Source: an uncultured Clostridia bacterium
GTDB lineage: Bacteria; Bacillota; Clostridia; Oscillospirales; Ruminococcaceae
NCBI GenBank assembly: GCA_944382905.1
Contig: CALWNU010000022.1
Coordinates: forward strand, 1-64,000
Direction of reading: 5' to 3'
DNA: 64,000 nucleotides
Both the position numbers and the translations under genes were made by a program. A model generated the notes under the pieces. The model did not search any database, was not told where the DNA came from, and saw nothing but the letters and a program-made list of their open reading frames with translations. Shown in pieces: positions 963 to 11,571 of the stretch (the first letter of the stretch is position 1; each line of letters begins with the position of its first letter).

Positions 963-1072
963 AATATTTGACCCGTATGCTATAATTGAGACAAAACATT
1001 GGATTTATATGTATTTGACACAAAGAATACAAATCAGTGTTGTACAGTAAGGGCGAAAGGAGGAAAAGCATT

Positions 1073-1744
1073 ATGAATAGTAAGATTTTGATTGTAGAAG
1101 ACGAAGCTAAGCTCCGGGAAATCCTTTGCGACTATTTCAGCAGCAAGGGCGAACTGCCCGTTGAAGCGAATGACGGGAGACAGGCACTTGAGCTGATCGA
1201 TGAGAACGAATTTGACGCTGTTTTGCTTGATATTATGATGCCGGAACTGGATGGACTTTCTGTATGTCGTGCTGTGCGCAGAACGAATGATGTCCCGATC
1301 ATTTTTCTCACCGCCCTGTCTGATGAAGAAGATAAACTGCTTGGCTATGAGCTAGGTGCAGATGATTATGTGACGAAACCATTCACCATGTCTGTTCTGT
1401 ATGCAAAAACGATGGCGCTCATCAAGCGCAACCAGCGAAATGTTCTTGCCGGTGACCGGATGGAGGTCAGCGGGATCACACTGGAACTGACTGCCGGAAG
1501 AGCGTATGCAGGGGGTAAAGAAGTCTTTTTGACGCCGAAGGAGTTTTCTCTCCTGCGCTGTCTGATGCAGAATAAAAACCTTGTCATGAGCCGTGAACAG
1601 CTTCTGGTTAAGTGCTGGGGTTATGATTACGAGGGCGAATCCCGAGCCGTGGATACCCATATTAAGCGTCTGAGAGAAAAGCTTGGCGATTATGCCGAAT
1701 GCATCAAGACAGTGATTAAGGCCGGATACAGATTGGAGGGATGA
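1073..1744 (+). CDS. OmpR/VanR-type response regulator
   Basis: A 223-residue two-component response regulator. Start chosen at ATG 1073 because AAAGGAGG lies 8 bases upstream; an in-frame GTG at 1037 has no such site. The receiver domain (about 1-115) shows the acidic pair ED at 9-10, the phosphoacceptor Asp53 in LLDIMMP, the Thr of FLTAL and the Lys of TKPF. The C-terminal half is an OmpR/PhoB winged helix (LTPKEFSLLRCLM, VDTHIKRLREKLG). It ends 2 bp before the start of the kinase gene, so the two are translationally coupled and form a cognate pair. It is cargo of the mobile element. TTGACA at 1015-1020 could be a -35 box but no good -10 follows. Confidence 0.92.
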   Translation: MNSKILIVEDEAKLREILCDYFSSKGELPVEANDGRQALELIDENEFDAVLLDIMMPELDGLSVCRAVRRTNDVPIIFLTALSDEEDKLLGYELGADDYVTKPFTMSVLYAKTMALIKRNQRNVLAGDRMEVSGITLELTAGRAYAGGKEVFLTPKEFSLLRCLMQNKNLVMSREQLLVKCWGYDYEGESRAVDTHIKRLREKLGDYAECIKTVIKAGYRLEG

Positions 1745-1746
1745 CG

Positions 1747-4029
1747 ATGAAGAAAATCTCCAAAGGGTACTATATAGCAGCGGCGTTACTTACCATTTGG
1801 GCTATTGTTGATTTTTATCACTATCTGGTAATCGGACAAGACATCGTAGACTATTACGATGGAGCAAATATAATCCGCAAATTGGTAGGGAATTCTTTGG
1901 TTCAGGCGCTTGTAAAAATATTGCTTGCAGATATAATCCTCATCATTGGACGGTGGCGGTCTAAAGAGAAAACTTCCATTCAATCCACAACTGTAATTTC
2001 TTTACTGCTGATCGTTTCCATCATGGGCACCTGGCTCGTTTCTATGTTCACGCTTACTGTTGTTACGGCGCAGGAAATCTATGATCAATTGTATAGCGCA
2101 AGTTATCGGTTACCTGAAAATGTAGACCTTAGCAGTGGGTTAAAAGATTATTACAATAAAAGCTCTGTCAGATACGGCAAACAGCATGAACGTCAGGATT
2201 GGTTTGAATATAGTATGCTTACTGCAATTTCCCGAAATAACGAGGCATCAATTCACAGTTCCGGAAATTATGATAACTATTATTCAGACAGGAGCAAGCT
2301 GATCCGTGATGTTCGCTATCCTATGGAAACCGCCGTTTTGTTCTATGATGCAAATGGTAATCTTCTGCACAGCAGTGAAGATGACATTATGTATTTCCAC
2401 TACTACACTCAGGAAGAGTGGGACGCCGGAATGGACAGCACCGCTGGACTGCATTATGGTTGGATCGATATCAGTGAAGGGAAAAATGCAGACAATTGGG
2501 AGGATGATCCCTACCTTCGTTTTCGTACCATGTATTCCGGCACTCACAGTTTATATGACATTAAAGCGATGCGTGTTACCGGCTATTTTGAAGGGACGAA
2601 GTTGGTACCTGTTGTGATGCACTATATTACCGAGACGCTGATTTGGCCTATCGTTGAAAATGATGATCAGTTTTCTACAGGGCCAAACAGTTATTCCTAT
2701 ATTGTCTCCGATGTGGACAGAACAGGCAAATTGGAATGGCAGCTTCAGTTTGACCGCAGCGCTGAATATAAAGATCGTGACCTTGTTACTGTATATCTTG
2801 ACTGTCCTGAAATGTGGGATTACAAAAGTTCTTCCTTAGTATATAACGGAGTTGAGTACGAAAGTCTTGCCGCACTGACCGAAAAACTTGATTTCCCTTC
2901 ATGGTCGGATGTATTTCTTTACTCGAATGAATTTCGCAGCATGGGAAGATTCAAGTTAAATGACCTTTTAGTTTTCGGTGGTTGGGAATATGCCGACTAC
3001 GAAGGATTTGATTATGCAACTGGTGGAGAGCCCGAAACAGAGTATATTCTGGTCACAGCTATCCGCAGCAATCCTCTCGCCTGCGCCATAAGTGCCCTGC
3101 GGAACATTTACATTGTGACCGGGATACTGGCTTTAGCGCTGTTTCTGGTCGTTTACAGCAATATCAAAAAACGCTTAGTGCAGCCTGTTGCAGATGTTGT
3201 TGCTGCTATGGAGGACGGGTGGAGAAATATTTACCATCCGGAAAACACCCTTGCAATGTGGTATGAGGCGGAAAAGCTGCACACAAATTTCGCCGCTGAG
3301 CAGGACCGCCGCAGGATGAAGGACAACGAGATCACCCGGTTGAACACCGCTTTGGAATATTCCAAGGTTGCCGAAGAAAACCGCCGTCGGATGACCTCTA
3401 ATATTGCCCACGAGTTGAAAACCCCGTTGGCGGTTATCCACAGTTACGCAGAAGGTTTGAAAGAACATATTGCCGAGGATAAGCGTGACAAGTACATTGA
3501 TGTCATTCTTTCCGAGACAGAGCGCACCGACAGTATGGTTTTGGAAATGCTCGACCTCTCTCGACTGGAAGCTGGCAAGGTGAAGTTGTCACGGGATGAC
3601 TTCTCTCTCGTTTCTCTGACACAGGCTATCTTTGAAAAGTTAGAAATGGCGGCACAGGCAAAGGAGCTTCAAATCGAGTTTTCTTTCCCGGATGACTTCA
3701 CGATGATTGCCGACGAAAGCCGGATCACACAGGTCATTGAAAACTTTGCTACAAATGCAGTCAAGTACACACCCGCTGGTGGTCATATCCTCGTAAAGAT
3801 ACAAACTGGGCACTCTGGTACAACCTTTAGCATCGAAAACGATAGTGAGCCGCTATCTGATGAAGCACTCAGTAAAGTATGGGACACTTTCTATCGGACA
3901 GACGAAGCTCGTTCTGGTGGCGGCACTGGACTTGGGCTTGCAATTGCGAAGAATATCGTGGAGCTGCACGGCGGCAAGTGCTCTGTGCGAAACACAAAAA
4001 CAGGCGTTGAATTTAGCTTTACAATTTGA
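1747..4029 (+). CDS. Membrane sensor histidine kinase with large extracellular domain
   Basis: A ~760-residue kinase. ATG 1741 overlaps the regulator stop, but ATG 1747 fits the TTGGAGGG at 1733-1740 better. The layout is three N-terminal membrane segments (about 6-30, 48-68, 82-106), an extracellular region of about 330 residues (110-440) rich in Tyr, Asp and Trp, a fourth membrane segment (about 445-467), HAMP-like linker, HisKA with the phosphoacceptor His555 in NIAHELKTPLAVIHSY, and a HATPase domain with VIENFATNAVKYT and GGGTGLGLAIAKN. This catalytic part resembles VanS/BaeS-type kinases. No transporter or resistance gene follows, so the signal and the output are unknown. The coding sequence is less GC-rich than the chromosome to its right, consistent with transfer. 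Confidence 0.92.
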   Translation: MKKISKGYYIAAALLTIWAIVDFYHYLVIGQDIVDYYDGANIIRKLVGNSLVQALVKILLADIILIIGRWRSKEKTSIQSTTVISLLLIVSIMGTWLVSMFTLTVVTAQEIYDQLYSASYRLPENVDLSSGLKDYYNKSSVRYGKQHERQDWFEYSMLTAISRNNEASIHSSGNYDNYYSDRSKLIRDVRYPMETAVLFYDANGNLLHSSEDDIMYFHYYTQEEWDAGMDSTAGLHYGWIDISEGKNADNWEDDPYLRFRTMYSGTHSLYDIKAMRVTGYFEGTKLVPVVMHYITETLIWPIVENDDQFSTGPNSYSYIVSDVDRTGKLEWQLQFDRSAEYKDRDLVTVYLDCPEMWDYKSSSLVYNGVEYESLAALTEKLDFPSWSDVFLYSNEFRSMGRFKLNDLLVFGGWEYADYEGFDYATGGEPETEYILVTAIRSNPLACAISALRNIYIVTGILALALFLVVYSNIKKRLVQPVADVVAAMEDGWRNIYHPENTLAMWYEAEKLHTNFAAEQDRRRMKDNEITRLNTALEYSKVAEENRRRMTSNIAHELKTPLAVIHSYAEGLKEHIAEDKRDKYIDVILSETERTDSMVLEMLDLSRLEAGKVKLSRDDFSLVSLTQAIFEKLEMAAQAKELQIEFSFPDDFTMIADESRITQVIENFATNAVKYTPAGGHILVKIQTGHSGTTFSIENDSEPLSDEALSKVWDTFYRTDEARSGGGTGLGLAIAKNIVELHGGKCSVRNTKTGVEFSFTI

Positions 4030-4104
4030 CGATGTTAAAATCCCTTTGGAACAAAGGGCGCACTTCTATACATGGGCAAGCCCTGTATGTGCGCTCTGCG
4101 AGGC

Positions 4105-4140
4105 AAACAGCCCGGACACTCCGAATGTCCGGGCTGTTTT
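4105..4140 (+). terminator. Terminator of the two-component operon
   Basis: A perfect 14-bp stem (4105-4118 with 4126-4139) ending in TTTT, 76 bases after the kinase stop codon. It is a standard Rho-independent terminator. Confidence 0.8.
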
Positions 4141-4276
4141 GCGTCACTGCGTTCCGAACAAGGGGCTGCACCCCTTGCGCTGCTTACGCAGCTATCCCAG
4201 CACACTTTGCGGCGGGAACAATCTGCTGACGCAGACAGTCCCCGCCGCAAAGTCTGATAATCCCATACCGTCAGCC

Positions 4277-4310
4277 AGACCGTCTACTGAAAATGTAGGC
4301 GGTCTTTTTT
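4277..4310 (+). terminator. Second terminator upstream of the mobilization genes
   Basis: An 11-bp stem (4277-4287 with 4295-4305, one G-U pair) followed by seven Ts. It insulates the mobilization genes from read-through. Confidence 0.75.
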
Positions 4311-4356
4311 CATCCCATCCATCCTATCCACCCCATCAAAAAGGAGGTCATGTACC

Positions 4357-4671
4357 ATGTCCAAACAGAAAACCATCCCGGAACTGAAAGCCGAAATCGC
4401 TGACAATGAGCGTCAGCTTGCCCAGCTCCGGCACAAACAGCAGCAGCTTGAAAACCGTATCACCTACTACGAAAAAGGAGATCGTCGCAAGCGGGCGCAC
4501 CACCTTATCACCCGTGGCGCAGCTATTGAAAGCGTTGCATCACTGACAAAGGTTTTGACCGAAACCGAGTTTTACGCCTTTGCGGAAAAAGCCTTCGCCT
4601 TGCCGGAAGTCAAGGACCTGCTCATGGAGGCCGTCAACGAGCACAATAAAAATGAGTTTGGGGGTGATTGA
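4357..4671 (+). CDS. DUF3847 family mobilization-associated protein
   Basis: A 104-residue protein beginning MSKQKTIPELKAEI at ATG 4357, ten bases after AAGGAGG. The first ~45 residues form a charged coiled coil (heptads of Leu/Gln in DNERQLAQLRHKQQQLENRI), followed by RAHHLITRGAAIESV, the conserved signature of the DUF3847 family. Members almost always sit just upstream of MobA/MobL relaxases in Firmicutes elements, as here, where the stop codon overlaps the relaxase start. This context suggests an accessory relaxosome or regulatory role resembling MobC-type proteins, but that is inference; no biochemical role is established from the sequence. Confidence 0.88.
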   Translation: MSKQKTIPELKAEIADNERQLAQLRHKQQQLENRITYYEKGDRRKRAHHLITRGAAIESVASLTKVLTETEFYAFAEKAFALPEVKDLLMEAVNEHNKNEFGGD

Positions 4672-6149
4672 CTATCGCACTGTATCATTTTCATGTGACC
4701 CAGATTAAGCGCAGCGCCGGACAGTCTGCTGTGGCTGCTGCCGCCTATCGCTCCGGCGAAAAGCTGCACAGCGAGTATTACGGTGAGGACAGCGACTACA
4801 CCCGCAAGGGAGGCGTGATCTGCTCTGAAATCCTACTGCCATCCTATGCTCCGCCAGAGTACGCAGACCGGGAAATCCTCTGGAACGCCGTTGAAAAAGC
4901 CGAGCGCGGAAAGAACGCACAGCTTGCATACAGCTTCGATATTGCCTTGCAGAATGAGTTTTCCATGGAGGAGAACATCGACATTGCAAGGCAATTTTTA
5001 TTGGAGCAGTTCGTGAGCCGGGGTATGGTGGTGGACTTCTCTGTTCATTCCCCTGACAAGGAGAACGGCGGCATTTCAAATCCCCATTTTCATGTCATGT
5101 GTCCCATCCGGCCTATTGAGCCGGACGGCAAATGGGGCAACAAACAGCGGCGGGAATATGTGCTGGACGAGGACGGCAACCGCATCCGGGACGAGGCTGG
5201 CAACTATGTGTTCAACGCTGTCCCCACCACCGACTGGGGCAGCCCGGAAACACTGGAAGCATGGCGGCAAACATGGGCTGACCTGTGCAACGCAAAGTTT
5301 GCCGAGAAGGGTTTGGATTGCCGCATCGACCACCGCAGCTATGAGCGTCAGGGTGTAGAGCAGATACCCACCCAGTATGAGGGGCCGACCGTCCGGGCAA
5401 TGGAGGCCAAGGGCATCCGTACAGACAAAGGCGATCTCAACCGCTGGATCAGGAAAACCAACGCCATGCTCCGGGAGGCGACACAGAAAATCGCCGCCCT
5501 GATCGACTGGCTGAAAGCTGTCAAAACCGAGCTGTCCAAGTCCCAGCCGCCTACGCTGGTGGAGCTGCTGTCCGCCTACTATGACAACCGCAATAAGGGC
5601 GCGTACAGCAACAAGGCCAGGATCGCCAATCTGAAAAAGCTGTCCGAGGCGGTCAGCTATCTGGAAGCCAAACGCCTCTACACCGCTGATGATCTGGACG
5701 AGGCTCTGCATACCATGCAGGGCAAAATCGACACGCTGAAAAAGCCCGCATCCGGGAAGCAGGTCCGCATCAAGGAATTGGACGAGCTGCTTCGCATGGC
5801 GGACTACTACAAGGCCGGAAAGCCCGTTGCCGACAAGCTGAAAACCATCCGCTTTGAGAAATCCCGTCAGAAGTACAAGGCCGAACACGACGATACGCTT
5901 CGCCTGTTCTACATGGCTGAGCGCAAACTGAAAGGACAGGCGGTGGACGGCAAGCTGCCCGCTGCCTCATGGCGTGCGGAAAAGGCCCGTCTGGAAACGG
6001 AGTACAGGGATTTGCAGACGGAGCTTACGCCCCTGTATGTCGACACAAAAAAGCTCTGGGCCATCCATTACAGCATCTATGAGGTGCAACATGAACAGGA
6101 TCGCCAGAACGCCGCTGTGCGGCAGAAAAAGCAAGAAATCGAACACTAA
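4668..6149 (+). CDS. mobA: MobA/MobL family (MOB_Q) relaxase
   Basis: A 493-residue relaxase that starts with TTG 4668, overlapping the preceding stop codon. Residues 1-230 are the MobA/MobL domain: YHFHVTQIKRS near the N-terminus, SAVAAAAYRSGE with the likely catalytic tyrosine, and the metal-binding triad motif NPHFHVM (His140, His142). It would nick one strand at oriT and lead it into the recipient. The C-terminal half (about 260-490) is long helical and Lys/Glu-rich and probably serves DNA or coupling-protein contacts. There is no helicase or primase domain, so this is the short form. Whether the element transfers by itself or is mobilized depends on genes outside the window. Confidence 0.93.
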   Translation: MTIALYHFHVTQIKRSAGQSAVAAAAYRSGEKLHSEYYGEDSDYTRKGGVICSEILLPSYAPPEYADREILWNAVEKAERGKNAQLAYSFDIALQNEFSMEENIDIARQFLLEQFVSRGMVVDFSVHSPDKENGGISNPHFHVMCPIRPIEPDGKWGNKQRREYVLDEDGNRIRDEAGNYVFNAVPTTDWGSPETLEAWRQTWADLCNAKFAEKGLDCRIDHRSYERQGVEQIPTQYEGPTVRAMEAKGIRTDKGDLNRWIRKTNAMLREATQKIAALIDWLKAVKTELSKSQPPTLVELLSAYYDNRNKGAYSNKARIANLKKLSEAVSYLEAKRLYTADDLDEALHTMQGKIDTLKKPASGKQVRIKELDELLRMADYYKAGKPVADKLKTIRFEKSRQKYKAEHDDTLRLFYMAERKLKGQAVDGKLPAASWRAEKARLETEYRDLQTELTPLYVDTKKLWAIHYSIYEVQHEQDRQNAAVRQKKQEIEH

Positions 6150-6175
6150 TCTTTACACAAAATCAGGAGGTACTT

Positions 6176-6538
6176 ATGAAACAGAAATCGCAATTTGAAC
6201 ACCTACTCGACCCGGAACTTTTGGAGGAAATCGAGGAATGGGAACAGCAGGAACACACCGAGCCGGAGGAATATTACTTCTCTAACCCCGATCCCTATTT
6301 CAAGCCCGCACCGTTGCCGCCCAACCATCCCAAACACAATTTCTGGTTTGATGAGGACGGACACATTTGCGTAAAAAATCCATCCGCTTTCTGGCTGCCG
6401 GAGTTCACTTTACAGAAAGAGATTGGTGGCACGATCTACTCCGTCACAGGCAGCTATGACGGGACAGAAACGCTGGACAGAAAAATGGAGCGCATTATGG
6501 CTGAAAAGTTTACAGAAAAGTTGGAGGATACCGAATGA
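6176..6538 (+). CDS. Small acidic element protein, function unknown
   Basis: A 120-residue protein (ATG 6176, perfect AGGAGG eight bases before). The first 60 residues are strongly acidic with runs such as EEIEEWEQQEHTEPEEYYF; the middle is Pro/Asn/His-rich (PPNHPKHNFWFDEDGHICV). The C-terminal half contains EIGGTIYSVTGSYDGTETLD, resembling the conserved 'transposon-encoded' or cysteine-poor accessory proteins placed between relaxase and recombinase in clostridial elements. No transmembrane segment or catalytic motif is seen. Its stop overlaps the longest possible start of the recombinase (ATGA at 6535), suggesting coupled expression. Confidence 0.7.
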   Translation: MKQKSQFEHLLDPELLEEIEEWEQQEHTEPEEYYFSNPDPYFKPAPLPPNHPKHNFWFDEDGHICVKNPSAFWLPEFTLQKEIGGTIYSVTGSYDGTETLDRKMERIMAEKFTEKLEDTE

Positions 6539-6615
6539 CAAATTCACAGACTCTTGGTAGAATAGAAGCAACCAATCCTGTACTGGCAGTTGCCCCTTTG
6601 AAGGAGGAAACAGAA

Positions 6616-8274
6616 ATGTTACGGGCAACTGATAAAATCACCGCACTCTACTGCCGTCTATCCGTGGAAGATATGAAAGAGGATAAAAAGGGCGGCAAGG
6701 AAGATGTGTCAAATTCCATCCAGAATCAAAAAATGATCCTGCTCCAGTATGCTAAGGAGAATCGCTTTCCTAACCCGACCTTTTTCGTGGATGATGGGTA
6801 CAGCGGCACGAACTATGACCGCCCCGGCTTCCAAGCAATGCTTGCGGAAATTGAAGCGGGACGGGTGGCAGTCTGTATCACCAAAGACCTATCCAGACTG
6901 GGAAGAAATTCCTCGCTGACCGGGCTTTATATCAACTTCACTTTCCCAAAGTATAATGTGCGATATATTGCCATCAATGACCACTTTGACACCATCGACC
7001 CCAACAGCACAGACAGCGATATTGCCGGTATCAAAAACTGGTTTAACGAATTTTTCGCCAAAGATACGAGCCGCAAAATCCGTGCTGTGCAAAAGGCAAA
7101 GGGTGAGCGTGGCGTACCGCTGACTACCAATGTTCCGTTTGGGTATCTCAAAGACCCGGAGGACAAAACCAAGTGGATCGTGGACGAAGCAGCGGCTATG
7201 GTAGTGAGGCGGATCTTCAAGCTGTGTATGGAGGGACGGGGACCGATGCAGATCGCAAAGCTCTTGCAGGAGGAAAAGGTGCTCAACCCCACCGCATATA
7301 AGCGCAGGGCGGGCATCAAAACCCCAAGCCCCGAAACCGATGATCCCTACCATTGGAATACCAACACCGTTGTTCACATTCTGGAACGGCGGGAGTACAC
7401 AGGCTGTACGGTCAACTTCAAAACCTACACCAATTCCATCTGGGATAAGAAGCAGCGGGAAACGCCCCTTGACAAACAGGCGATTTTCTACAACACCCAT
7501 CCGGCGATCATCGAGCAGGAAGTCTTTGACAAGGTGCAGGAGATCCGGCAGCAGCGTCACCGCAGGGCGAAAACAGGCAAAAGCAGTTTGTTCTCCGGCA
7601 TGGTTTACTGTGCCGACTGCGGAGCGAAAATGCGGTATTGCACCACCAATTACTTTGAGAAACGGCAGGATCACTTTGTATGCGCCAACTACCGAAGCAA
7701 TACGGGAAGCTGTTCGGCGCACTTTATCCGGGCGGTTGTTCTGGAAGATTTGGTCTGGATGCACATGAAAGCGGTCATCTTCTATGTGACACGGTATGAG
7801 AATCACTTCCGGGCAGTTATGGAACACAAGCTCCTGCTGTCCAGCGAGGAAAAAATCTGTGCAAGCATCAAGCGTCTGGAACAGGCGCAACGGCGCATGG
7901 GAGAGCTTGACCGCCTGTTTATCCGCATCTATGAGGACAATGTGGCGGGACGCATCAACGATGAACGATTTTCCATGATGAGCAGAAGCTACGAAACCGA
8001 GCAGGAACAGCTTAAAGAGGAAAGCCAGACCTTGCAGCAGGATATTGAAGTACAGGAACGACAGATTGAAAATTTGGAACAGTTTATTCAGAGGGTACAC
8101 AAGTACAAGGATTTGGACGAGCTTACCCCCTATGCTCTGCGGGAACTTGTTAAGGGAGTTTATATTGAAGCCCCCGACAAGAGCAGCGGCAAACGGCGGC
8201 AGAACATCCGCATTTCCTATGATCTTGTGGGCTTTATCCCGCTGAATGAACTGATGAAAGAAGGAACGGCATGA
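6616..8274 (+). CDS. Large serine recombinase (TnpX/TndX-like)
   Basis: A 552-residue site-specific recombinase. ATG 6616 is preferred because AAGGAGG lies nine bases before it; an ATG at 6535 overlapping the upstream stop gives a 27-residue longer form. The resolvase domain (1-150) shows Ser16 in YCRLSVED, ITKDLSRLGRNS, and the following IDPNSTDSDI region; then the recombinase domain (GVPLTTNVPFGY, RRIFKLCMEGRG) and a zinc ribbon with CADCGAKMRYC and a second Cys pair, followed by a coiled coil near 430-500. Such enzymes excise and integrate clostridial elements through a circular intermediate. Its position at the edge of the element, with chromosomal housekeeping DNA soon after, fits the usual layout. 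Confidence 0.95.
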   Translation: MLRATDKITALYCRLSVEDMKEDKKGGKEDVSNSIQNQKMILLQYAKENRFPNPTFFVDDGYSGTNYDRPGFQAMLAEIEAGRVAVCITKDLSRLGRNSSLTGLYINFTFPKYNVRYIAINDHFDTIDPNSTDSDIAGIKNWFNEFFAKDTSRKIRAVQKAKGERGVPLTTNVPFGYLKDPEDKTKWIVDEAAAMVVRRIFKLCMEGRGPMQIAKLLQEEKVLNPTAYKRRAGIKTPSPETDDPYHWNTNTVVHILERREYTGCTVNFKTYTNSIWDKKQRETPLDKQAIFYNTHPAIIEQEVFDKVQEIRQQRHRRAKTGKSSLFSGMVYCADCGAKMRYCTTNYFEKRQDHFVCANYRSNTGSCSAHFIRAVVLEDLVWMHMKAVIFYVTRYENHFRAVMEHKLLLSSEEKICASIKRLEQAQRRMGELDRLFIRIYEDNVAGRINDERFSMMSRSYETEQEQLKEESQTLQQDIEVQERQIENLEQFIQRVHKYKDLDELTPYALRELVKGVYIEAPDKSSGKRRQNIRISYDLVGFIPLNELMKEGTA

Positions 8275-8402: not shown

Positions 8403-8431
8403 TTGGCTTTTTTTCGGAAGAATGGTACAAT
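8403..8431 (+). promoter_or_regulatory. Sigma-A promoter of the sortase gene
   Basis: TTGGCT (8403-8408), 17-base spacer, TACAAT (8426-8431) preceded by TGG, making an extended -10. The expected leader is about 145 nt. Confidence 0.7.
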
Positions 8432-8477: not shown

Positions 8478-8581
8478 AAATTCAACGGCGCTTGCAACAA
8501 AATTTTGTCCCGCAGGTACTTATTATGCAGGGCTTATGTCAAAAAGCATAGGGCAATACAAACAAAGAAGGGGACGCAGGT

Positions 8582-10789
8582 ATGCTTCCGAATAATAGAA
8601 AACCTTACAGCAAAACAAAAAGAGCAGGGTCCCGGGGAGACGCCACGGCGGCCCAGATGGCTGTGCCGGCTTCCGGAACCCGGCGGAAAAAGAAAATTCC
8701 GTGGTATAAAAAACTGATCCGGATGATGGTGCCGACCAAAAAAGACAGCGTGGTGGATAAAGTCCGCAAGATCATTTTCGACGTTTCGATTTTGGTGTTT
8801 ATCGGATCCTGCGCTTATTTGATCAGCTATTATGGCGCGTCGGAGCACAACGCCAAATTTTACGACGGCATTGCCGGCATGCTGGGTACCGGGGAGGTCG
8901 ATGAAAACTATCCCCGCGCCTATTTGACCAAGTTTGCTTCCCTGTGGGAGATGAATGAGGATATCATTGGCTGGCTTTCCATCGACGGGACGAAGGTGAA
9001 CTATCCTGTGGTGCAGACCGATGACAACGACTATTATCTGCACAAGGACTTTTCCAAAGCGGACAACAAATATGGAATCCCGTTTGCCGACTGCCGGGTG
9101 GATATCAGTAAACCAAGCACCAATATCCCCATCTATAGCCATAACATGAAAGACGGGCAGATGTTCGGCGAACTGATCAACTACGAAAGCCTGGATTATT
9201 ACAAAGAACATCCGGTCATCAATTTTGACAGTTTGTACGAAGAGGGAAAATACAAAATCGTCAGCATCTTTATCGCTTCCACCCTGCCGGAACATGCGCC
9301 CAACTTCGAGTACCACAATTTTATCGAGGCGGATACCGATGAAGAGCTGATGGAATTCGCCAATGAAGTGCTGTCCCGCTCGCTGATCGTCACCGGAGTG
9401 GACATCCAGCCTGGCGACCATCTGATTACCTTATCGACCTGTACGTATGATTTCAAAGAGGCCCGTTTTGCCATTGTGGCCCGCCGGGTGCGGGAAGGCG
9501 AATCGGAAACGGTGGATACCTCCGCGGCTTATGTCAACCCCAACCCGGTGATGCCCAAAGCCTGGTATGAAGCCAAACAAATTGCGGCGCTGGTAGCCGG
9601 GGTCAGCATTTCGCCGGAAAACCTGTCGTTGAAGCCAGGGGAATCGGCGTCCTTGACGGCGACGGTATTGCCTAATACCGCAGTGAACCGCAACGTGAGC
9701 TGGTCTTCGTCCGATCCGTCGGTGGCCAGCGTGGACCAATCCGGTAATGTAACCGCGCATCAAAGCGGGACCGCGGTCATCACCGTGACGACGGAGGAAA
9801 GCGGGTTTACCGCTTCCGCCACCGTGACGGTAGGCGTCGGGCCGATTACACAAATGTATTTTGCTTCTGAAGGGATCAGCATCCCTGTCAATGGCAGCAC
9901 TGATCTATCCGGCTTGTTGGTGGTGGAACCGGAAGGGGCCAGCCTGGAAGGGCTGCAGTGGTCCTCGTCCGACCCATCGGTAGCCAGCGTTTCCGCAGGG
10001 TCGGTGAGCGGGAAAAAGGTCGGTACCGCCACGATTACCGTGACGGCGCCCAGCGGGGTGTCCGCATCCATTGCGGTGCAGGTCGGCACCTATATCCCCA
10101 TCGAAGGGATGGGGATCACCGCCAGCAGCCAGACGGTTGCAATCGGCAGTTCGGTCCAGCTGACGCTGGGCATCAGCCCGACCGACGCTACCAATCAGCA
10201 GCAGATTGAATGGGGCATTGACAGCGGCAAGCGAAACGTCTCGCTGAGCGGAAGTGGGAAATCCGCTACCGTAACGGGGCTCAAAGCAGGGTCGGCGACG
10301 ATTTATGCCGCGGTCAACGACAATGGGGAAATGAAATATGCCCAGATTACCATCACGGTAACCGAGAAGGTGCAAGCGCCGGAAAGCCTGGAATTCCAAT
10401 ACAGCCAGGCGTCGATTAAGGTGAACGACGGCGGGTCGTTGCAGGATATTTTGATCTTAAACCCGACGGGGGCAGCCACCGACCAGCTGGTTTGGAAATC
10501 GTCCAATAGTTCGATTGCACGGGTGGAAAACGGGATGGTAACCGGCGTCAGCGCCGGGGTTGTGACGATTACGGTCACGGCGCCAAATGGAGCGACGGCC
10601 ACAATCGAAGTGACGGTCATCGACCCCAACGCGTCTTCTTCCTCTTCTTCGGCGCCGGAGTCCTCCAGCTCCAGCGAAGAAGTGACTTCCTCTGAGGCGG
10701 AAGACGGTTCGGAACAAGGCGATGGACAGGAGGGCGGAGAAGAAGAAGAGGGGGGCGGAGAAACCCCGCCGCCCAGCATTTGGGGCTAG
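8582..10789 (+). CDS. Class B sortase fused to four Big_2 (Ig-like) domains
   Basis: A 735-residue membrane-anchored sortase (ATG 8582, AAGGGG upstream). Residues 1-60 are a basic cytoplasmic tail, about 62-86 a single membrane segment, and 100-315 a sortase B fold with WEMNEDIIGWLSIDGTKVNY, catalytic His187 (IYSHNM), Cys287 (TLSTC) and Arg295. After a short linker come four bacterial Ig-like repeats (about 337-420, 421-502, 504-597, 598-681) each carrying the WSSSDPSVASV-type or related core, then a Ser/Glu-rich tail ending PPPSIWG. Sortases normally end soon after the catalytic domain, so the C-terminal array is unusual and probably spans or holds the cell wall. No LPXTG-type substrate is encoded in the window. 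The gene is monocistronic, with its own promoter and terminator. Confidence 0.93.
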   Translation: MLPNNRKPYSKTKRAGSRGDATAAQMAVPASGTRRKKKIPWYKKLIRMMVPTKKDSVVDKVRKIIFDVSILVFIGSCAYLISYYGASEHNAKFYDGIAGMLGTGEVDENYPRAYLTKFASLWEMNEDIIGWLSIDGTKVNYPVVQTDDNDYYLHKDFSKADNKYGIPFADCRVDISKPSTNIPIYSHNMKDGQMFGELINYESLDYYKEHPVINFDSLYEEGKYKIVSIFIASTLPEHAPNFEYHNFIEADTDEELMEFANEVLSRSLIVTGVDIQPGDHLITLSTCTYDFKEARFAIVARRVREGESETVDTSAAYVNPNPVMPKAWYEAKQIAALVAGVSISPENLSLKPGESASLTATVLPNTAVNRNVSWSSSDPSVASVDQSGNVTAHQSGTAVITVTTEESGFTASATVTVGVGPITQMYFASEGISIPVNGSTDLSGLLVVEPEGASLEGLQWSSSDPSVASVSAGSVSGKKVGTATITVTAPSGVSASIAVQVGTYIPIEGMGITASSQTVAIGSSVQLTLGISPTDATNQQQIEWGIDSGKRNVSLSGSGKSATVTGLKAGSATIYAAVNDNGEMKYAQITITVTEKVQAPESLEFQYSQASIKVNDGGSLQDILILNPTGAATDQLVWKSSNSSIARVENGMVTGVSAGVVTITVTAPNGATATIEVTVIDPNASSSSSSAPESSSSSEEVTSSEAEDGSEQGDGQEGGEEEEGGGETPPPSIWG

Positions 10790-10825: not shown

Positions 10826-10858
10826 GCGCGGCGGACGATGGTCCGCCGCGCTTTTTTT
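10826..10858 (+). terminator. Terminator of the sortase gene
   Basis: An 11-bp GC-rich perfect stem (10826-10836 with 10841-10851), four-base loop, then seven Ts. Confidence 0.9.
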
Positions 10859-10995: not shown

Positions 10996-11511
10996 TCAGC
11001 GGGAGGGGGTGCGTTTTGGCCGGGCAGGCAGCTTTTTCGGCGCTTTTTGGCTGGAACTTGCCGGATCGGCTTGGGCGGCGGCTTCGGGTTGGTCCCGGCC
11101 GGCGGGGGCGGCGTGCCGGGGATGCCTGCACTCTTGTTTTGGTGCGGGCTTGTCCTCTTTCCGGGCCGCCGGGCGGCGCTTGGTTGGGCGGTGGTCCGCC
11201 AAGAACAGCGGCGTCCAGCCCAGCAGCTCCCCGTCTGCATATTCTCCATCGGGCAGGACCCGGACCTCTGCTACTTCCGCCCAGCGCTGCTTGGGGTTGC
11301 CCAGCGTATGGTATTTTCCGTCCCCTACAACGGCCAGCCGGACGCCATTATCCAGCAGCACGCGGTCGTTGCCCAGATCCATCCCGTCGACGATGGAGAT
11401 GTCCCGGCGGTTGACCTCCCGCTGTTCCCCCGTAAAGCAATTGAGGACGAGGATTTTTTTTACGACTTTTTCTTTCGGTTTGCTTTTCTGCGAGGGGCCA
11501 TTCCATTTCAT
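10996..11511 (-). CDS. Protein of unknown function, Pro/Ala/Lys-rich tail
   Basis: A 171-residue protein beginning MKWNGPSQKSKPKEK. Start chosen at the ATG ending at 11511, eight bases after AGGAGA; a longer in-frame start exists at 11571 but lies upstream of the predicted promoter region. Residues ~18-115 look folded and beta-rich (VKKILVLNCFTGEQREV, ISIVDGMDLGNDRVLLDNG, VVGDGKYHTLG). The last ~55 residues are low-complexity and basic, probably disordered. No membrane segment or signal peptide. It has its own promoter (divergent from pepT) and terminator, which supports a real gene despite competing open frames on the other strand. I do not recognise the family. Confidence 0.65.
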   Translation of the reverse strand: MKWNGPSQKSKPKEKVVKKILVLNCFTGEQREVNRRDISIVDGMDLGNDRVLLDNGVRLAVVGDGKYHTLGNPKQRWAEVAEVRVLPDGEYADGELLGWTPLFLADHRPTKRRPAARKEDKPAPKQECRHPRHAAPAGRDQPEAAAQADPASSSQKAPKKLPARPKRTPSR

Positions 11512-11542
11512 ACCGCCATCTCTCCTTTTTTGTGCTGTCCTC

Positions 11543-11571
11543 ATCATACTCCCAAACAAAAAATTTGACAA
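11543..11571 (-). promoter_or_regulatory. Promoter of the minus-strand unknown gene
   Basis: On the minus strand: TTGTCA (complement of 11566-11571), 17-base spacer, TATGAT (complement of 11543-11548). It is 32 bases upstream of the chosen ATG and supports that start. Confidence 0.7.

Follow-up and report, generated by a model that had tools for sequence, protein, structure and literature searches.

A class B sortase with a C-terminal Big_2 array belongs to a widespread, apparently undescribed set of sortase fusions

To our knowledge, sortases are generally regarded as compact enzymes that stop at the catalytic barrel. The 64,000-nt stretch of DNA from an uncultured Clostridia bacterium analysed here (the window) contains a gene for a sortase that continues far beyond this point. 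A Pfam search of the deduced product (Table 1) identified a Sortase domain at residues 132–303 (31.6 bits against a cut-off of 26.6) and four stretches of Big_2 (146.7 bits against a cut-off of 22.8). Together with the predicted fold, these matches bear out an earlier note, made from the sequence alone, that described a sortase B with four Big_2 domains and an acidic tail, and the single N-terminal anchor proposed there corresponds to one membrane helix. Pfam found neither an adhesive domain, the Big_2 domains being of the stalk type, nor a CinA domain, for which only about 58 aa are available before the membrane helix.

The NCBIfam model for class B sortases, TIGR03064, gave the protein 151.5 bits, narrowly under a cut-off (153.75) that is a naming rule and not a biological feature, and that is passed by the CinA-fused relatives L047 and L107 described below; on its fold and its triad, the window protein is a class B sortase. 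Residues His187, Cys287 and Arg295, which the earlier note had correctly located, align with the triad of the relatives, and the sortase core reads TLSTC. The predicted structure (mean pLDDT 79.8, pTM 0.44) was most similar to sortase B among PDB entries, with a TM-score of 0.90, normalised to the target, for 2oqw, and shows the class B helix in the beta6/beta7 loop (strand 223–233, helix 253–266, strand 281–287). The likeness to SrtB from Bacillus anthracis (2oqw/1rz2), Staphylococcus aureus and Clostridioides difficile comprises the fold (TM-score about 0.9 to 2oqw), the His/Cys/Arg triad, the loop helix and the N-terminal anchor; whereas the solved chains stop close after the barrel, the window protein runs on for about 420 residues, through a conserved linker, four Big_2 domains and the acidic tail. 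The window protein itself is a new variant within a known enzyme class, and the unexpected part is the family of CinA and wall-domain fusions that surrounds it.

Table 1. Features of the sortase B-Big_2 locus, in window coordinates.
Feature	Coordinates	Strand	Details
Promoter TTGGCT-17-TACAAT, extended -10	8403..8431	+	consensus scan; sigma-70-like
Conserved 5' leader: invariant GGTACTTATTATG, possible two hairpins, ribosome-binding site AAGGGG	8490..8581	+	alignment of 5 congeners
Sortase B-Big_2 gene	8582..10789	+	single ORF from the ATG at 8582 to the stop at 10789; product of 735 aa
Cytoplasmic N-terminus, residues 1-58	8582..8755	+	basic; MLPNN start conserved
Membrane anchor helix, residues 59-88	8756..8845	+	sequence; long helix 57-100 in model
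Class B sortase domain, residues 114-311	8921..9514	+	His187 at 9140, Cys287 at 9440, Arg295 at 9464
Linker, residues 312-337	9515..9592	+	motif NPNPVMPxAWY
Big_2 domain 1, residues 338-417	9593..9832	+	strongly conserved in genus
Big_2 domain 2, residues 421-501	9842..10084	+	
Big_2 domain 3, residues 506-592	10097..10357	+	
Big_2 domain 4, residues 600-680	10379..10621	+	fast-evolving
Acidic Ser/Glu/Gly tail, residues 684-735	10631..10786	+	predicted disordered; PSIWG end
Intrinsic terminator	10826..10851	+	11-pair stem and T run; strong

The same domain order, with three to five copies of Big_2, occurs in four other genomes of the genus (57–79 % identity) and in two genomes of a second genus, so that it is due neither to chance nor to a mis-join; mapped across taxa, the architecture is genus-wide and not a one-off. 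A small convergent gene and pepT lie downstream of the sortase-Big_2 gene in L039–L041 and L044; the short contig L042 ends within pepT, still downstream of the gene, and contig L043 ends before that region. An assembly error that fused a sortase gene to a Big_2 gene, as might be suspected in a draft of 52 contigs that is 88.5 % complete, can safely be discounted, because the architecture recurs in the six other genomes, making seven with that of the window, and pepT is found downstream wherever the contig extends far enough.

Sequence variation is not evenly distributed along the protein. Identity to the three nearest congeners is 94–95 % in the sortase and 88–96 % in the linker plus Big_2 domain 1 (about 90 % in the latter), and then drops to 62–79 % in domain 2, 38–84 % in domain 3, 22–67 % in domain 4 and about 30 % in the tail. 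Among the nearest congeners, dN/dS is about 0.02–0.04 for the sortase and 0.04–0.08 for Big_2 domain 1. Both are under strong purifying selection and behave as one conserved unit bearing a variable stalk. Big_2 domains are common stalk modules, and distal repeats and a tail that diverge and vary in number are as expected of a stalk; the idea that the repeats hold or extend the enzyme is thus plausible and indirectly supported by the outward drop in identity and the varying number of repeats.

Outside both genera, the closest matches were not ordinary sortases but fusions of CinA (MoCF-KH-CinA), a transmembrane segment (TM) and a sortase B domain, ending in SpoIID, glucosaminidase (L107), Big_2 or Ser-rich tails. 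SpoIID occupies the C-terminal place in about 30 relatives, and Big_2 does so in several separate branches. The search covered 249 genomes of the family, 212 of them matching at 1e-40, not always with a fusion, and mainly long-frame matches were fetched; about 65 distinct fusion proteins were read, almost all from one family of Oscillospirales. Among 341 sampled genomes of the class, no long-frame match lay outside the family at E≤1e-80, and a shorter CinA-sortase fusion occurs elsewhere in the order (L018, G058). Since the isolate Acetanaerobacterium elongatum (L047) also has a CinA-sortase fusion, these proteins are not an artefact of metagenomes. Across a whole bacterial family, then, sortases reside within proteins of 700–1400 aa, mostly with added wall-facing modules, and many of the fusions also join a cytoplasmic CinA domain to them through the membrane.

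It is in CinA-fused proteins that the most similar sortase domains beyond both genera are found (44–58 % identity). With these proteins, exemplified by the CinA-TM-sortase B-SpoIID fusions of Oscillospirales such as that of A. elongatum, the window protein shares the juxtamembrane region and the NPxPLMPxxWY linker, but it lacks CinA and has Big_2 where SpoIID stands. Of 70 fusions, 51 have the linker motif after the sortase, compared with three of 25 stand-alone sortases, a group in which many chains stop too soon to contain it; the window protein has both its sortase branch and this motif in common with the CinA-sortase fusions. Support for the window clade in the sortase tree is high (99), but several weakly supported branches determine where exactly it falls among the CinA fusions. 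CinA-sortase-Big_2 fusions (L015, L076, L081, L086, L087, L020/L130) resemble the window protein in that Big_2 repeats follow the sortase but, unlike it, keep CinA; their positions elsewhere in the tree suggest repeated acquisition of the Big_2 tail. The sortase-Big_2 proteins form one branch of a widespread and apparently undescribed set of sortase fusions: a search of the open-access PMC literature for sortases combined with Big_2, CinA, SpoIID or extra domains yielded no account of these fusions, and the Filifactor sortase (PMC13257024) is an ordinary class A case. The earlier note had considered that the architecture might already be common and characterised; the fusion set is indeed common in the family, but apparently uncharacterised in open-access papers. 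Among individual members, L107:2592-5507 (-) encodes a CinA-sortase B fusion that ends in a glucosaminidase domain, and its counterpart in L109 is nearly identical. The CinA-sortase-Big_2 gene adjoins a second sortase gene on the opposite strand in L081 (G242) and L076 (G173), SpoIID-tailed in the former and untailed in the latter, and the CinA-sortase-Big_2 gene of G100 is immediately followed by a SpoIID gene.

The distribution of CinA genes suggests how the window protein came to be without this domain. In the seven genomes whose fused CinA scored at least 165 bits (L047, L017, L019, L092, L097, L109 and L132) it was the only CinA found; of the 14 genomes in which it was degenerate or undetected, 13 had a stand-alone CinA, that of the window included. 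In these related and partly incomplete genomes, this pattern suggests that fusion came first, followed by a separate CinA, the decay of the fused copy and, finally, its absence, as in the window protein. Intact fused CinA, being the only CinA found in its genome, appears to be a cytoplasmic enzyme held at the membrane by the sortase.

All five genomes of the genus contain, besides the sortase-Big_2 protein with an intact triad, a CinA-sortase-SpoIID paralogue in which the catalytic Cys has been replaced (TLSTE, TLSTA or TLSTP) and, wherever the site was read, the catalytic His has changed to Asn. The triad is intact in all of the Big_2-tailed members examined. The presence of dead sortases in each species of the genus examined suggests a non-catalytic use of the fold. 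These paralogues, with a degenerate CinA, are L061:4811-8242 (-) (G000:C27) and those in L133, L144, L145 and L146. Four further fusions outside the genus have the catalytic Cys changed to Pro (L026, L110), Gly (L124) or Ser (L125), so that, judging from these residues, sortases probably lost catalysis on more than one occasion. In the second genus, the partner from one genome has SpoIID and an intact triad, and the contig of the other genome ends before the tail. As a tentative and rather speculative scenario, an ancestral CinA-sortase-SpoIID protein could have duplicated and split its roles, the Big_2 copy keeping the transpeptidase and the other, with degenerate CinA and SpoIID, using the dead fold as a binding module, so that together they would couple anchoring to local glycan remodelling.

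None of the window ORFs of at least 80 aa, all of which were checked, ends in a C-terminal sorting signal, in agreement with the earlier claim that no sortase substrate is encoded in the window, and a search of the genome with TIGR03063 for srtB-type signals found none. Eight matches to sortase occur in the genome, of which seven exceed the Pfam cut-off. Profile searches of this genome, which is 88.5 % complete and may thus be missing substrates, and of fetched stretches identified convincing sorting signals in four proteins: three with LPXTG, encoded within other sortase clusters (contigs C10 and C38), and a truncated surface protein with NPGTG at a contig edge (L136:3-437, G000:C36). No other class-B-like candidate substrate was found, and the NPGTG protein is only a weak one, because the motif recognised by class B sortases in C. 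difficile is (S/P)PXTG (PMC5118464).

We favour, with moderate confidence, the reading of the window protein as a membrane-anchored class B transpeptidase that acts in trans on wall proteins, with the Big_2 stalk holding or positioning the enzyme or docking a partner. This reading is supported by the SrtB fold, by the triad aligned in the relatives and by the low dN/dS of the sortase and Big_2 domain 1, as well as by the mostly wall-facing nature of the modules found at the C-terminus (SpoIID, glucosaminidase or Big_2) and by the pairing, within the genus, of an active sortase-Big_2 protein with a dead CinA-sortase-SpoIID paralogue. Against it stand the lack of matches to the srtB-target model in the genome, the location of the NPGTG protein elsewhere, at a contig edge, the association of the LPXTG proteins with separate sortase clusters and the narrow miss with TIGR03064. 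As a putative type II (N-in) membrane protein, it would expose the sortase outside the membrane, with the Big_2 rod and acidic tail extending into or through the wall. The sortase, predicted to be catalytically competent, would cut the class B-type C-terminal sorting signal of a secreted protein, which would then be joined to a peptidoglycan precursor, while the stalk would hold or position the enzyme in the wall, or dock a partner. The protein would descend from CinA-sortase fusions, with a Big_2 stalk replacing the wall-enzyme module, and might have divided an ancestral role with the dead-sortase/SpoIID protein. Through domain deletion, such fusions make it possible to test, for example, what determines the position of a sortase in the wall and whether anchoring is coupled to glycan remodelling.

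The array and tail might instead serve primarily for adhesion or wall binding, the sortase being mainly a membrane-proximal base whose enzymatic activity is secondary. The rapid evolution of the distal repeats, as in surface-exposed adhesins, the frequent use of Big_2 in stalks and the retention of dead sortase domains by the paralogues, which indicates that the fold can persist without catalysis, are all compatible with this role; nevertheless, it is unlikely, given that the sortase is the most constrained part of the protein, that every Big_2-tailed member examined has an intact triad and that Pfam finds no adhesive domain. Less probable still is a sporulation-linked sortase working with the SpoIID paralogue in engulfment or spore-surface assembly and not in vegetative wall anchoring. 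The paralogues do bear a SpoIID domain and Spo0A-like genes were found in 10 of 10 genomes tested, but the match is only a diverged one in the window genome and in G004, SpoIID/LytB domains are also found in vegetative wall proteins, and the promoter of the sortase gene is sigma-70-like. Finally, it is very improbable that the enzyme is its own substrate, whether in cis or between copies, and uses its tail or the NPxPxMP linker to become cross-linked to the wall or to sister molecules. The NPNPVMP linker, conserved across the fusions, is loosely like an NP-type signal, but it has no Thr and is predicted to be fairly ordered (pLDDT 86, then 76), and the tail contains no PXT or other sorting motif, no hydrophobic segment and no hydrophobic/charged sorting signal, which makes self-anchoring unlikely and leaves the earlier suggestion that the enzyme might work on itself unsupported.

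The sortase gene has its own promoter and terminator, as the earlier note had proposed (Table 1), and the -10 core TACAAT is identical in the seven aligned genomes of the two genera. The start codon is preceded by the Shine-Dalgarno-like sequence AGAAGGGG. In the two possible hairpins of the 5' leader two pairs are changed on both sides among five sequences; the invariant block GGTACTTATTATG occurs only once in the genome, and comparison of the leader with Rfam gave nothing credible and no family match. Genes for a response regulator, a histidine kinase, a DUF3847 protein, a MobA/MobL protein and a serine recombinase occupy positions 1037–8274, likely a mobilisable element ending just 5' of the sortase gene. 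Comparison of the 5 kb upstream of the sortase-Big_2 gene in relatives led us to reject this gene as cargo of the element: it occurs there together with pepT and without similarity to the element, and is hence native. Between the sortase gene and pepT, the window contains a small convergent ORF (10996–11571, - strand) without a Pfam match, which is conserved across the genus and in L044.
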